From Chlorobiota bacterium (GTDB lineage: Bacteria; Bacteroidota; Bacteroidia; Bacteroidales; F082), in contig JAADIS010000118.1 in the NCBI GenBank assembly GCA_013151215.1, forward strand, positions 1 to 64,000: a stretch of DNA of 64,000 nucleotides. The letters run 5' to 3'. The notes below the pieces were generated by a model, which searched no databases, was not told the origin of the DNA, and saw nothing but the letters and a program-made list of their open reading frames with translations. The translations under genes were made by a program, and so were the position numbers. The stretch's first letter is position 1. Each line of letters opens with the position of its first letter. Of this stretch, positions 8,583-14,590 are shown piece by piece.

Positions 8583-11000
8583 TTATTTGATTTTATCAGC
8601 TATGCGAAGTATATCTCCGAAAACGCCCCTGGCAGTAACCTCGGCACCGGCACCCGCTCCTTGTATTACTATTGGTTTGCTGCCATAGGATTGTGTATAA
8701 ATCTCAAATATTGAGTCCGACCCGTTTATGTTTCCCAGTGAGCCATTTGCAGTCAGCCTAAGGAGCTTAACCTCAAGTATCCCCTTGTCCTGCTGTAAAT
8801 CGCCATGCAGCTTAGCAATATATCTCAATACTTCACCGGTTTTGAGCCGGGTTTTTATTTCATTGTATTTATTGTCCAATCCCGGAATTGATTGCAAAAA
8901 ATGATTTTTTGTCAAGTCCCTGAGTTCCAGGGGGACAAGATTTTCTATTTTAACATCCCGGATTTCATTCCCGAGATCCAGTTCCCGGGCAAGAATTAAC
9001 AGTTTTCGGGCCACATCCATGCCCGACAGATCTTCGCGCGGGTCAGGTTCGCACAAGCCTTCCCCAACTGCCTCCAGTACTATCTTGCTGAAATCATCGT
9101 CGCGAAGCGAGAAATTATTGAAGATATAACTCAGCGAACCGGAAAAAATACCTCTGATAGAAGTTATGTTCTCGCCGGAAGCATGCAGCAACTTAATTGT
9201 ATCGATAAGTGGCAAACCAGCACCGACATTGGTTTCGTAAAGATATTGCTTGTCGAAAGCCTTTAAATATCGGCGAAGTTCCCGATAAAACCCAATACTT
9301 CTGGTATTTGCTATTTTATTGGAGGAAACCAAATCAAAGCCATTCTCAATTAGGGTAAAATAATTATCGGTAAACTCAAAACTGGCAGTATTATCAATGG
9401 CAACGAGATTCTCAAGATGGTGTCCCGTTGCAAAAGCAATGATTTCATTGAGCACATTCTTTGATTTATGAAGAGTTTCGAATTTAGCCCTCCAGTTCCG
9501 TGATATCCCTTTTTTATTTAATAAAACTTCATCTTTACCAGCTATAGCGAAGATATTTAGATCCAAATCGCGTTTATCGAAAATATTTTGCCAAGCATTT
9601 AAAATCTGTTCTATCAACGAAGAACCTACGTTTCCCTTACCTATTATGGCAATATTTAACCTTCGGCTAATACCGAAAATTTGAGAATGGATCACATTTA
9701 ATGCCTTGTTAACACTAGGGTTTTCAATTAACAGACTTACATTATTGCCACCTATAGTGTTGTTTATCAGCAATATATCGATATTGTTCTTTTTCAGGTT
9801 CCTAAAGGCAGTTCCAAACCCATTTATGTCTATGCCTATTACGCTAATGAGGGAAACATCGCAAATCGAATAAACAGAACTGATATCCCCGTTTTTAATT
9901 TCTGATTGAAATGTTGCCTTTAAAGCCGAAACAGCCTTGTCCGACTCGTTTTTGTTAATCACGAAGCCAACACATCGCTCCGAGGAGCCTTGCGAAATCA
10001 AGCCTACGCTAATATCCAGCGCATAAAGGGTTTGAAATATCCTGGCATCAATGCCTTTTTTCCCGAGCAATCCTTTTCCTTCAAGGTTTATTATACAGAC
10101 ATCATTTTTTATCGTTATGGATTTTAAAGTGTTGCAGGATTGCTTTTCGCACACTAAAGTTCCTTTGAAGGCGGGATTGAATGTGTTTTTTATCAGCAAG
10201 GGGATTTTACTCTCTTCTAATGGGAGAATAGTTTTGGGGTGCAGGATGGATGCCCCGAAACCTGCAATTTCGGCCGCATCGGCAAACGAAAGTTTAGCAA
10301 TGCTTCGTGCCTCTGAAACCAGGTGCGGATTGGCAGTGAAAACTCCATTTACATCAGTATAGCTTTCAACGATTCCTGCATTTATGAACTTGGCAATCAG
10401 CGAAGCCGTATAATTACTGCCGTTTCGGCCCAAAGTAGTTGTTTGTCCATTTATCGTGGATGCGACAAAGCCACTGGTCAATGGTATTTTGCCCTCAGGT
10501 AGCCTTGAGAAAACCTCTTTTGTTCTTTTAAGCGATAAATCCTCGAGCACACGGGCATTTCCAAAATTGTCATCGGTAAAAATCAAATCACGGCTATCGA
10601 TTAAATGAGCGGGCAATGATTTTTTAAGGAGCATGGAAGCAAGAGTCTTTATTGCCATTATTTCCCCCTGGGCCAAAATTAAATCCTTGCTCCTCAAGCT
10701 ATAATCGCCAACGAGGCTTATGCCTTTTAATATGCTTTGCAGCAAAGCAAACTCAACGCTTAAATCAACATCTTGGCACGGCAAGAGTTGTTGTTGTTTT
10801 AAATGTTCGAGTTTCCCGGAATAATCGCCGCCTGAGGCTGCCAGCTCGAGAATATCTTCCAGCATGTTGGTGGAATCACCTCTTGCCGAAAGCACCACGC
10901 AAAAAGTATTATCACTATGATATTGATTTTCAATAATTTCTATTATTTTGTATATGGCTTCGTTTGAAGCCGATTTACCTCCGAATTTCAGGATCTTCAT
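8583..11000 (-). CDS. thrA: Bifunctional aspartokinase / homoserine dehydrogenase
   Basis: N-terminal MKILKFGGKS aspartokinase; ACT region; C-terminal homoserine dehydrogenase. Confidence 0.95.
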   Translation of the reverse strand: MKILKFGGKSASNEAIYKIIEIIENQYHSDNTFCVVLSARGDSTNMLEDILELAASGGDYSGKLEHLKQQQLLPCQDVDLSVEFALLQSILKGISLVGDYSLRSKDLILAQGEIMAIKTLASMLLKKSLPAHLIDSRDLIFTDDNFGNARVLEDLSLKRTKEVFSRLPEGKIPLTSGFVASTINGQTTTLGRNGSNYTASLIAKFINAGIVESYTDVNGVFTANPHLVSEARSIAKLSFADAAEIAGFGASILHPKTILPLEESKIPLLIKNTFNPAFKGTLVCEKQSCNTLKSITIKNDVCIINLEGKGLLGKKGIDARIFQTLYALDISVGLISQGSSERCVGFVINKNESDKAVSALKATFQSEIKNGDISSVYSICDVSLISVIGIDINGFGTAFRNLKKNNIDILLINNTIGGNNVSLLIENPSVNKALNVIHSQIFGISRRLNIAIIGKGNVGSSLIEQILNAWQNIFDKRDLDLNIFAIAGKDEVLLNKKGISRNWRAKFETLHKSKNVLNEIIAFATGHHLENLVAIDNTASFEFTDNYFTLIENGFDLVSSNKIANTRSIGFYRELRRYLKAFDKQYLYETNVGAGLPLIDTIKLLHASGENITSIRGIFSGSLSYIFNNFSLRDDDFSKIVLEAVGEGLCEPDPREDLSGMDVARKLLILARELDLGNEIRDVKIENLVPLELRDLTKNHFLQSIPGLDNKYNEIKTRLKTGEVLRYIAKLHGDLQQDKGILEVKLLRLTANGSLGNINGSDSIFEIYTQSYGSKPIVIQGAGAGAEVTARGVFGDILRIADKIK

Positions 11001-11012
11001 TGTTGTTTACTT

Positions 11013-11978
11013 CTAGAGATATATTTGTAAAAAATTTATAATCTGCTCAAATTCAATTAAAAAGGCATCATGTCCATGAACAGAATCAATTATATAAACA
11101 TGATTTTCAATTTGCATCTTGTTAAGCCTATCAGCAGTTTTCATACATTCATCTGTTACAAACATGAGATCGGAATTTATGTTTATTTGAATAATTGTGG
11201 CCGATACATTCCTGACTGCATTCTCGAATGATCCCAATTGCCTGCTAATATCAACAGTTGAAAGAAGGTGGTTCATCATTTTATAGGCCGAAAGCGAAAA
11301 CCTTTTTTGTAATTTATGGCCATGGTGGTTTAGCCACGATTCTATATTGAACATAGAATTATCTTCCGTTCTGCCCCTATTGAATTTAAGTTTCATTGAA
11401 GGCTGAGAGCGATAAAAAAGCATTGCCATCATTCGGGCATCATATATAGGCCAACTGGAATTTTGAAGGATCTTATCCTGCACATAAGTCTGTCCGATTA
11501 TCCAATCTGTTGATTTCCAGTCGGATGCAATAGGTATGACATATTCGAAAAAACCGGGTTTTTGTGCCAGCATTTCCCAGGCTATACAACCGCCAAGGCT
11601 TCCGCCCAAAGCGGCATATACCTTTCTTACACCAAGTATCCTCAAACAATTGTTGAACAATGCTGCGATATCATAAGTCGTAAAACATTTATAATTGTCA
11701 ATTACCGACCCATCAAAAGCGTTCCCGGGAATGTTAAAACCAAGGACGGTATATTTTCCGGTATCAACAAGTTTAGATTTTCCAATTATAGTTTTCCACC
11801 AGCCCTTTTCTTCGCCGGCAACATCTGAATTGCCCGTAAGGGCATGAACAACAACCACTATGGGAGCCTTATTAATTTCCTGGCCGAAAAGCTGATAAGA
11901 GATGTCCAGCTTTTCAAAGCGGACATCTCTTTGTGTTATAAAATTACTGATGGTGATTTTATTCAACAGATTGCTCAT
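11013..11978 (-). CDS. metX: Homoserine O-acetyltransferase-type alpha/beta hydrolase
   Basis: VVHALTGNSDV, GGSLGGCIAWE nucleophile elbow, SVHGHDAFL; operonic with metY and thrA. Confidence 0.85.
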   Translation of the reverse strand: MSNLLNKITISNFITQRDVRFEKLDISYQLFGQEINKAPIVVVVHALTGNSDVAGEEKGWWKTIIGKSKLVDTGKYTVLGFNIPGNAFDGSVIDNYKCFTTYDIAALFNNCLRILGVRKVYAALGGSLGGCIAWEMLAQKPGFFEYVIPIASDWKSTDWIIGQTYVQDKILQNSSWPIYDARMMAMLFYRSQPSMKLKFNRGRTEDNSMFNIESWLNHHGHKLQKRFSLSAYKMMNHLLSTVDISRQLGSFENAVRNVSATIIQININSDLMFVTDECMKTADRLNKMQIENHVYIIDSVHGHDAFLIEFEQIINFLQIYL

Positions 11979-13252
11979 TTTGAGATATTTATAGCGTTTT
12001 CTATGTCACATATCAAGTCATGGGCATCCTCAAGGCCAATAGAAAGGCGAATTAAATCGCGGCTGACACCGGAAGATTTTTGCTGATCTTCATTTAATTG
12101 CTGATGTGTTGTGCTAGCCGGATGAATAATCAACGATTTTGTATCGCCGATGTTTGCCAGGAGAGAGAAAATACCCACGTTGTCGGTAAATTTCTTAGCC
12201 CTTTCATAACCACCTTTAAGCCCGAAGCTTATAATTCCGCTTTGGCCTTCCGGCAGATATTTTTTTGAGAGATCAAAATATTTACTGCTTTTGAGCCCCG
12301 GGTAGTTTACCCATGCCACCTCAGGGTTTTCCTCAAGCCATTGTGCTATTTTAAGTGCGTTTTCCGAATGTCGTTTAATCCTGACGTCCAGGGTTTCCAG
12401 GCCTTGTAAAATCTGAAAAGCGTTAAACGGGCTTAGTGCGCCGCCCAGGTCGCGCAAGCCTTCCAAGCGTACTTTGGCAACAAAAGCCTCCTCACCTATG
12501 GCTTCTGAATACACCATCCCATGGTAAGCTTCAGAAGGTTCGGTAAAATCGGGGAATTTACCATTAGTCCAATCAAAAGTACCGGCATCGATAAGTACCC
12601 CTCCAAGTGAATTGCCATGCCCTCCGATATATTTGGTCAGGGAATGAACAACTAAATCGGCACCGAATTTTATAGGGTTAAGCAGAGCCGGTGATGGAAC
12701 TGTGTTATCAACTATCAATGGTATCCCAAGATCTTTTGCAATCGTGGCTACAGCCTCAATATCAACTATATCCAATTTAGGATTTCCAAGGCTTTCCAGA
12801 AAAATTGCACGAGTATCCTCCTTTATGCAATGTCTGAAATTCCTTGGTTCGTCGGCCTCGACAAAATCGGTGTTTATGCCAAATCGCCTAAGAGTTACAT
12901 TAAGCAAATTATATGTCCCACCGTATAAACTCGAAGAAGAAACAATATGGTCGCCCGACTTAAGAAGTGTTAGCAAAGTAGTTGCTATTGCTGCGGTTCC
13001 GGAGGCGAAAACAGCAGCTCCTATCCCACCCTCTAGGGCAGCCAGGCGTTGTTCCAAAATATCGTTGGTGGGGTTGTTTAAACGGGTATAAATAAATCCG
13101 CTATCGCGTAATGCGAATAAATCGGCAGCATGATCGGTATCGTTAAAAACATAAGATGTGGTTTGATAAATAGGAACAGCACGTGCTCCGGCCGTCAACT
13201 TGCTCTCGTGTCCTGAGTGCAATGCTATTGTTGATTTGTTAAATGTTGTCAT
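11975..13252 (-). CDS. metY: O-acetylhomoserine sulfhydrylase (Cys/Met metabolism PLP enzyme)
   Basis: TIALHSGHE...VPIYQTTSYVF, HSLTKYIGGHG PLP-lysine motif. Confidence 0.93.
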   Translation of the reverse strand: MTTFNKSTIALHSGHESKLTAGARAVPIYQTTSYVFNDTDHAADLFALRDSGFIYTRLNNPTNDILEQRLAALEGGIGAAVFASGTAAIATTLLTLLKSGDHIVSSSSLYGGTYNLLNVTLRRFGINTDFVEADEPRNFRHCIKEDTRAIFLESLGNPKLDIVDIEAVATIAKDLGIPLIVDNTVPSPALLNPIKFGADLVVHSLTKYIGGHGNSLGGVLIDAGTFDWTNGKFPDFTEPSEAYHGMVYSEAIGEEAFVAKVRLEGLRDLGGALSPFNAFQILQGLETLDVRIKRHSENALKIAQWLEENPEVAWVNYPGLKSSKYFDLSKKYLPEGQSGIISFGLKGGYERAKKFTDNVGIFSLLANIGDTKSLIIHPASTTHQQLNEDQQKSSGVSRDLIRLSIGLEDAHDLICDIENAINISK

Positions 13253-13290: not shown

Positions 13291-13331
13291 AAAAAAAGTC
13301 CCTTTGGTTATGGTATTACCAAAGGGACTTT
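13291..13331 (-). terminator. Intrinsic terminator 2 of the metY leader
   Basis: Minus strand AAAGTCCCTTTGGT-AATACCATA-ACCAAAGGGACTTTTTTT: perfect 14-bp stem plus T run. Confidence 0.85.
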
Positions 13332-13351
13332 AAAAATTTGTTTTTAATCTG

Positions 13352-13432
13352 TCAGTTCAGGCAATACCGGAGCATCGATTGCATCATCATTTGCATTATC
13401 ATAAAATCCACATGTATTATTATTAAATTCAT
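13352..13432 (-). CDS. Putative Met-rich leader peptide 2: MNLIIIHVDFMIMQMMMQSMLRYCLN*
   Basis: Manual translation; 7 Met in 26 aa including MIMQMMM; lies between the two terminators; GGTATTGCC just after the Met cluster complements GGTAATACC in terminator 2. Confidence 0.5.
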   Translation of the reverse strand: MNLIIIHVDFMIMQMMMQSMLRYCLN

Positions 13433-13441
13433 TTTTTAAGC

Positions 13442-13480
13442 AAAAAAAAAGACCTTCACAATATTTGCAAAGGTCTTTTG
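13442..13480 (-). terminator. Intrinsic terminator 1 of the metY leader
   Basis: Minus strand AAAAGACCTTTGCAA-ATA-TTGTGAAGGTCTTTT followed by a T run: 15-bp stem including 2 G-U pairs. Confidence 0.85.
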
Positions 13481-13498
13481 TGTTTTAAATCTATTTTT

Positions 13499-13573
13499 TT
13501 AAACAATATCGCCCTTTGCGTAAGTATACTTACACATCATCATAGAGCACATATATGAATAATACTTTCCCAT
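13499..13573 (-). CDS. Putative Met-rich leader peptide 1: MGKYYSYMCSMMMCKYTYAKGDIV*
   Basis: Manual translation; MMM run followed by a stop and terminator 1; GCAAAGG (TAC GCA AAG GGC) complements CCTTTGC in the 5' arm of terminator 1. Confidence 0.7.
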   Translation of the reverse strand: MGKYYSYMCSMMMCKYTYAKGDIV

Positions 13574-13858
13574 TTGAATCGGCGAAATTAGAGTTTTTTT
13601 TAATTACCAAGTACATTTTCTGCGTTCTATCTAAATTTATGGGGAAACAAGCATATAACAAGGATGATTTAAATTACAGTATAGTATTGTGTATCATTTA
13701 ATTACTTGATTAAAATTGAATTATAAATTTTAATCAAGGTGGAAAAATTAAACAATAATAATATAGCCTGAAAGGCTTACATAACATTGTATGGGGCAGC
13801 GCCACATGAAAAATTTAAGTTTGTGATATAGTTTAACGAAAAAATATTTTAGCGGCGA

Positions 13859-14590
13859 CTAAAATATTTTCTGGTGCAGATTACCTCCCAGGTCATAGTA
13901 TTCGGCTATTATTTTTGCCTTACAGTTTAAGTTGAGTTCCAAACTTTTATGCATTTCTTGAAGAGCATCCTTTATTTCTGCTTTTTCGAGATAGTCTTGT
14001 AAGATCATCAATTTTAGAACAAGCACATTATTTTCTCTTTCAAGACGTGCTGATGTTTGTGCATCATTACCGAAATAGCCTGATATTTTTAAAATACCGG
14101 CAACTTTTTTAATTTCCTCAAAATTTACGTTTCCCTTATCGTAATATATTTCGTTTGAAGTTTCCCCAAACTCGATTTTCGACCCGGGGTAAGCGGGCTG
14201 GCTGATGCCAATAATGAAAGCAACCGTTAAAGTTATTACAATTCCGCCCACGGAGTATAAAGCGACCGTCCAGTTGGAAGCCTTGGCTTCGCCTTCCTCA
14301 ATTCTCCCGTCAACAATTTTCTTTAGGAAAATTCTATGGTAATAATAAGCAAATAAGGCATAAGTGGCACTGGTAACCGAGCCAACAGCACGAGCCAGTT
14401 TATCATCGCTGATATTAAAAACCACAACAAAACTGACTATCAACAACAAAAACGAAACGGACAGCACAATGTTTGCTTTTTCTTTTTGATCAAGGGTTCT
14501 CAAATTCTTATAAACCAGCAGTCCTCCAGCCAAGGGGCCACCAAAAAAAGTAGCAAATGCTGATTGTTTTTCACTGAAGTATTTTTTCAT
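13859..14590 (-). CDS. Hypothetical membrane protein
   Basis: Open 243-aa frame with several predicted TM stretches. Confidence 0.65.
   Translation of the reverse strand: MKKYFSEKQSAFATFFGGPLAGGLLVYKNLRTLDQKEKANIVLSVSFLLLIVSFVVVFNISDDKLARAVGSVTSATYALFAYYYHRIFLKKIVDGRIEEGEAKASNWTVALYSVGGIVITLTVAFIIGISQPAYPGSKIEFGETSNEIYYDKGNVNFEEIKKVAGILKISGYFGNDAQTSARLERENNVLVLKLMILQDYLEKAEIKDALQEMHKSLELNLNCKAKIIAEYYDLGGNLHQKIF

Follow-up and report, generated by a model that had tools for sequence, protein, structure and literature searches.

Tandem Met-rich leader peptides form two predicted serial transcription attenuators before metY in Bacteroidota

The metY-metX-thrA genes of this Bacteroidales genome are very probably controlled by two ribosome-mediated transcription attenuators arranged in series behind one promoter, which would sense the charging of tRNA-Met and probably also of tRNA-Cys. 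This reading draws on sequence comparison and in silico folding, both within the window (the whole 64,000-nt stretch of DNA analysed) and at related metY loci. In each unit, a ribosome would trail RNA polymerase through a short open reading frame (ORF) in which Met codons, and often Cys codons, abound. A shortage of charged tRNA-Met or tRNA-Cys would stall the ribosome at those codons and leave exposed a segment slightly downstream (region 2), whose pairing with region 3 would block the terminator and allow transcription to continue. When charged tRNA is plentiful, the ribosome would reach the stop codon and cover region 2, leaving region 3 to pair with region 4 and transcription to end. Because metY would be reached only by polymerases that had passed both gates, the repression exerted by the two should multiply. 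The known means of methionine control in bacteria are repressors, SAM riboswitches and T-boxes; a methionine attenuator that reads codons poses a conceptual difficulty, since Met is also the first residue of every protein.

Read along the minus strand, the region holds a gene of unknown family, a promoter-like TTG...TAATTTCG, leader ORF1, terminator 1, leader ORF2, terminator 2 and metY, the start of which (13252) lies downstream of terminator 2 (Table 1). The preliminary description had named a 24-aa ORF, a terminator with a 15-bp stem, a 26-aa ORF, a terminator with a perfect 14-bp stem and metY in series, and we found all of them on this strand; the two alternative pairings that it had proposed also lie where it had placed them. 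Each unit consists of a Met-rich ORF of 24–26 codons with a pairing arm in its final codons, followed by a terminator whose 5′ arm is complementary to that pairing arm. Leader peptide 1 has its start Met, four internal Met and two Cys, and leader peptide 2 its start Met, six internal Met and one Cys. As in known attenuators, an intrinsic terminator stands between leader ORF and first gene: the stem of terminator 1 includes two G·U pairs (ΔG −15.9, z −6.0) and that of terminator 2 is perfect (ΔG −20.3, z −6.1), each followed by a T run. In the alternative structure, GCAAAGG pairs with CCTTTGC over 7 bp in unit 1, and GGTATTGCC with GGTAATACC over 9 bp, one of them G·U, in unit 2. With a 4-bp overlap between metY and metX and a gap of 12 nt before thrA, the three genes likely form one operon. 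MetY scored above its NCBIfam cut-off, and MetX and ThrA are best matches, both below the equivalog cut-offs. A 243-aa protein encoded upstream of the leader (13859–14590 in the window) had no NCBIfam or Pfam match.

Table 1. Features of the leader and operon, in window coordinates
Feature	Position	Strand	Remarks and basis
Possible promoter −33 TTG	13608..13610	−	Starts 20 nt 5′ of the −7-like element; inferred from sequence
Bacteroidota −7-like element TAATTTCG	13583..13590	−	17 nt 5′ of ORF1; one mismatch to TAnnTTTG
Leader peptide 1 ORF, MGKYYSYMCSMMMCKYTYAKGDIV and stop	13499..13573	−	24 codons; sequence and detector
Possible region 1:2 hairpin, GTGTAAG-TATA-CTTACGC	13518..13535	−	Pairing over 17 loci
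Region 2, unit 1 (antiterminator 5′ arm), GCAAAGG	13513..13519	−	Duplex comparison, covariation, folding
Region 3, unit 1, CCTTTGC	13467..13473	−	Common to antiterminator and terminator
Intrinsic terminator 1	13447..13479	−	Stem, T run, folding, pair counts
Leader peptide 2 ORF, MNLIIIHVDFMIMQMMMQSMLRYCLN and stop	13352..13432	−	26 codons; sequence and detector
Region 2, unit 2, GGTATTGCC	13360..13368	−	Duplex comparison, pair counts, folding
Region 3, unit 2, GGTAATACC	13312..13320	−	Duplex comparison, pair counts
Intrinsic terminator 2	13295..13331	−	Stem, T run, folding, pair counts
metY, O-acetylhomoserine sulfhydrylase	11975..13252	−	TIGR01326, 632.7 bits (cut-off 495.1)
metX-like homoserine acyltransferase	11013..11978	−	Best match MetX NF001209, 170 bits, below cut-off
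thrA, bifunctional aspartokinase/homoserine dehydrogenase	8583..11000	−	PRK09436, 718 bits (cut-off 726)

We gathered metY upstream regions from the window's family, from named genomes and from across the phylum, and ran on 179 of them, at fixed settings, a detector for a Met/Cys-rich short ORF followed by a terminator. At least one unit was detected in 52 of the 179 regions (83 units), compared with 0/179 reverse complements and 0/179 in each of two dinucleotide-shuffle sets, which argues that these units are not due to chance, with the reservation that the loci are phylogenetically related and the shuffle counts overstate their independence. Two units stand in tandem 5′ of metY in 32 of 113 related loci, and the same order of Met-rich ORFs and terminators recurs in the same genus, the same family, Flavobacteriaceae, Saprospiraceae and others. 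The arrangement is not confined to Bacteroidales, since Flavobacteriaceae, Saprospiraceae and more distant Bacteroidota also carry it. MetY of the window's type passes E 1e-80 in 17/120 genomes of the window's family and in 2/5 of its genus, and on the MetY tree the window's protein clusters with Flavobacteriaceae and Saprospiraceae sequences; operon and leader may possibly have been acquired by horizontal transfer.

The preliminary description had also proposed that relatives be compared at metY, and in these upstream regions both the Met-rich ORFs and the alternative pairings proved to be conserved, with covariation. Antiterminator scores within a locus, across loci and with region 2 shuffled were 17.0, 13.8 and 12.5 for unit 1, and 22.9, 16.9 and 13.0 for unit 2. 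The antiterminator helices had 85.8% (unit 1) and 79.8% (unit 2) of cells paired and the terminator helices 94.6% and 93.6%, values that were reached in 0 of 500 shuffles for either kind of helix, although the pair counts for all four helices are inflated by related rows. The strongest sign for alternative structures comes from three-way changes in unit 1: at one position shared by regions 2, 3 and 4, one group has A-T-A and nine other loci have G-C-G; at another, a single locus (L061) has T-A-T where most loci read C-G-C. In unit 2, the long antiterminator is kept with different letters in L041 (AGATATTGCCAAA with TTTGGTAATATCT), L011 (CATGTGCAGAAG with CTTCTGCACATG) and L058 (CTATTGCGAAAGG with CCTTTTGCAATAG). 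As expected of an attenuator, the conserved antiterminator and the terminator are mutually exclusive. The best unit 1 duplex was weak or displaced in L024, L025, L032 and L034, and the alternative pairing was no better than chance in some distant loci and convincing in others, for example in both units of L188.

These data bear on whether one unit alone is a true attenuator, the other being a relic or no more than a terminator that follows a short ORF. The 11 of 113 related metY loci with a single detected unit would fit such an arrangement, which we nevertheless consider unlikely: ORF, antiterminator and terminator are kept in both units among relatives, with covariation. One of these single-unit loci is from Flavobacterium (L149/L262); there a TonB receptor gene has been inserted, with unit 1 on its 5′ side and unit 2 on its 3′ side, before metY. 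With the TonB-dependent receptor between the units (L262, 457–5372), the receptor would be subject to a single gate and metY to both, if the gates work.

Two serial attenuators would also need ribosomes to act from the right distance. At most loci, region 2 of unit 1 starts 14–18 nt past the A of the final ATG, and its end lies 11 nt upstream of the stop codon; in unit 2 the commonest distances are 7 nt from the last ATG to the start of region 2, with further ATGs upstream, and 2–6 nt from its end to the stop codon. We folded the leaders in silico with an assumed ribosome footprint that extends 12 nt past the first base of the A-site codon. With a ribosome at the best Met codon, the mean probability of the antiterminator was 0.88 in unit 1 and 0.97 in unit 2; at the stop codon it was 0, partly a consequence of the assumed footprint. 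In the model with this footprint, a stalled ribosome frees region 2 and a terminating one covers it. Without a ribosome, the mean probability was 0.48 in unit 1 and 0.80 in unit 2, and 0.99 for both units of the window. Folding thus predicts that default termination without translation is not assured, the antiterminator being favoured ribosome-free in many loci, and that blocked initiation would switch the operon on. A candidate 1:2 hairpin in unit 1 follows directly on the last Met codon and overlaps region 2 by 2 nt. Its 5-bp core had 90.6% of cells paired over 17 loci, compared with 13–68% for slid versions, and no significant covariation was found over these 17 loci; such a hairpin could protect region 2.

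The leader ORFs hold clustered codons for the pathway's own amino acid. Met makes up 17.7–21.6% of leader residues in peptides chosen by Met alone, compared with 1.4% in six proteins of the window. In the same Met-picked peptides Cys accounts for 9.1% of residues in unit 1, where the TGT of a frequent Met-Cys-Lys falls within the candidate hairpin and may be kept for structure, and for 8.2% in unit 2, compared with 0.8% in the six proteins; at least one Cys occurs in 37 of 44 leader peptides picked by Met content. The early description of these as Met-codon leaders is borne out by the Met enrichment, but Met alone is probably too narrow: Cys codons are enriched about tenfold, so that Met and Cys are probably sensed together. 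Peptide sequences vary freely (MMCMCCCM, MMMCCCFMMC, MMSMMM) yet retain Met and Cys, a pattern that points to selection acting on the codons themselves, as opposed to a constant RNA motif or a constant peptide.

In a search of the whole window, no Rfam family reached its gathering score, and this holds for the SAM riboswitches too. A SAM riboswitch covering the leader, which the preliminary description had raised as evidence that would speak against attenuation, is thereby ruled out as its identity, as is any other Rfam RNA. At related loci the two kinds of control replace each other: among 113 related metY loci, SAM-I occupies the leader position in 65, leader-peptide units are present in 43, five have neither and none has both. 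A MetY tree, built by a quick method, implies at least four changes between the SAM-I and leader-peptide kinds. Lutibacter has leader peptides at metY and also a SAM-I, which lies shortly 3′ of the gene. Four loci (L029, L038, L159 and L170) had neither a leader-peptide unit nor SAM-I in the stretch searched 5′ of metY. At seven loci of distant Bacteroidota (L185, L186, L201, L203, L204, L207 and L224), one Met/Cys leader peptide with its terminator is followed by SAM-I, and a further distant locus, L188, carries two leader peptides but lacks SAM-I; gate 2 thus comes in both kinds. In Flavobacterium, the stretch 5′ of metX (L232, 991–1165 and 1631–1739; likewise L233 and L234) contains in succession a short ORF with Cys codons at its end (MNKSLQMNKMFNVARICVCVC), a terminator-like element and a SAM-I riboswitch; this ORF is possibly a separate Cys leader.

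The exchange with SAM-I also helps to weigh what the leaders sense. Leaders that respond to general slow translation or ribosome-targeting stress, in the manner of erm-type leaders, and not to Met or Cys charging, would agree with the folding, since any stall ahead of region 2 would antiterminate and the state without a ribosome is predicted ON too. We regard this as very unlikely, as Met and Cys are specifically enriched in freely varying peptides, the genes downstream belong to Met biosynthesis, and SAM-I takes the leader's place at this same operon. That this place is taken by a riboswitch in relatives could also suggest a riboswitch of a new class, with Met, SAM or homocysteine as its direct ligand and with incidental short ORFs, but this is extremely unlikely given the lack of any Rfam match, the little conservation of RNA outside terminator and antiterminator, and the in-frame Met/Cys codons kept in variable order and number.

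The placement of promoter motifs bears on the order of the gates. An exact TAnnTTTG, the consensus of the Bacteroidota −7 element, occurs within 45 nt 5′ of ORF1 in 13 of 25 loci and 5′ of ORF2 in 1 of 24, and a same-genus relative has TAATTTTG at the place of the window's TAATTTCG. With no second promoter in sight, polymerase would have to pass both terminators, and we infer that both gates lie in series under a single promoter before unit 1.

The leader module is not tied to metY. Besides the Flavobacterium receptor gene, tandem matches to the unit models lie 5′ of an operon encoding OsmC-like, metX-like, aspartokinase-homoserine dehydrogenase and Cys-Met PLP-enzyme proteins in a genome without a close MetY (L260, 425–6001). 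A search with the unit-1 model over the class gave few strong matches, one of them 5′ of another Met operon. Searching the window's own genome with the unit-2 model gave one convincing match, at metY, the others looking like ordinary terminators; phylum-wide, unit-2 matches near 40 bits were mostly ordinary terminators, the Flavobacterium metY loci being real. With moderate confidence we propose a broader reading, in which gate 1 reads the charging of tRNA-Met and tRNA-Cys, a leader peptide and SAM-I can stand in for each other as gate 2, and the module serves before sulfur amino-acid operons of Bacteroidota; it would be the first methionine attenuator. If the serial-gate reading is true, a single leader could integrate the charging of tRNA with the level of SAM in an AND-like decision. 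The exchange of a conserved tandem leader with a riboswitch would offer a natural comparison of aminoacyl-tRNA and SAM sensing at the same gene, and the tandem leader would mark a widespread control layer of Bacteroidota that is missing from Rfam.

Leader-peptide control is barely documented in Bacteroidota. The mechanism proposed here is classical; what appears to be new is the methionine version in tandem, as we found no methionine attenuator or Met-rich leader peptide in the openly searchable literature; an earlier prediction may exist elsewhere (e.g. Lopatovskaya et al. 2010, cited in PMC4833913). In the same phylum, inferred leader peptides of Flavobacterium psychrophilum are described as ‘strong clues’ for attenuation before amino-acid operons in a paper whose main text does not mention methionine (PMC9723704). 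Cys leader peptides of actinobacterial cys operons are likewise short ORFs with runs of Cys codons before sulfur genes; in that study the Cys leaders lacked conserved terminator hairpins and methionine operons lacked conserved RNA structure (PMC1262725). The Salmonella mgtCBR leader also carries two short ORFs, mgtM and mgtP, each in an attenuator, which respond to ATP and proline and were called a singular example by the authors (PMC3641672), whereas the two ORFs described here are both rich in Met and precede a biosynthetic operon. The S-box or SAM-I riboswitch (RF00162) shares with the tandem leader its position before metY in relatives and the expected termination when Met or SAM is plentiful, but it senses SAM by an aptamer and is absent from the window's leader, the sole copy in this genome sitting before metH. 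The trp, his, leu, thr and ilv leaders of Proteobacteria resemble the tandem leader in their short ORF, which contains codons for the amino acid that the pathway makes, their mutually exclusive antiterminator and terminator, and a region 2 within reach of a stalled ribosome; they differ from the arrangement described here, with its Met (and Cys) codons, two serial units, occurrence in Bacteroidota and exchange with SAM-I.
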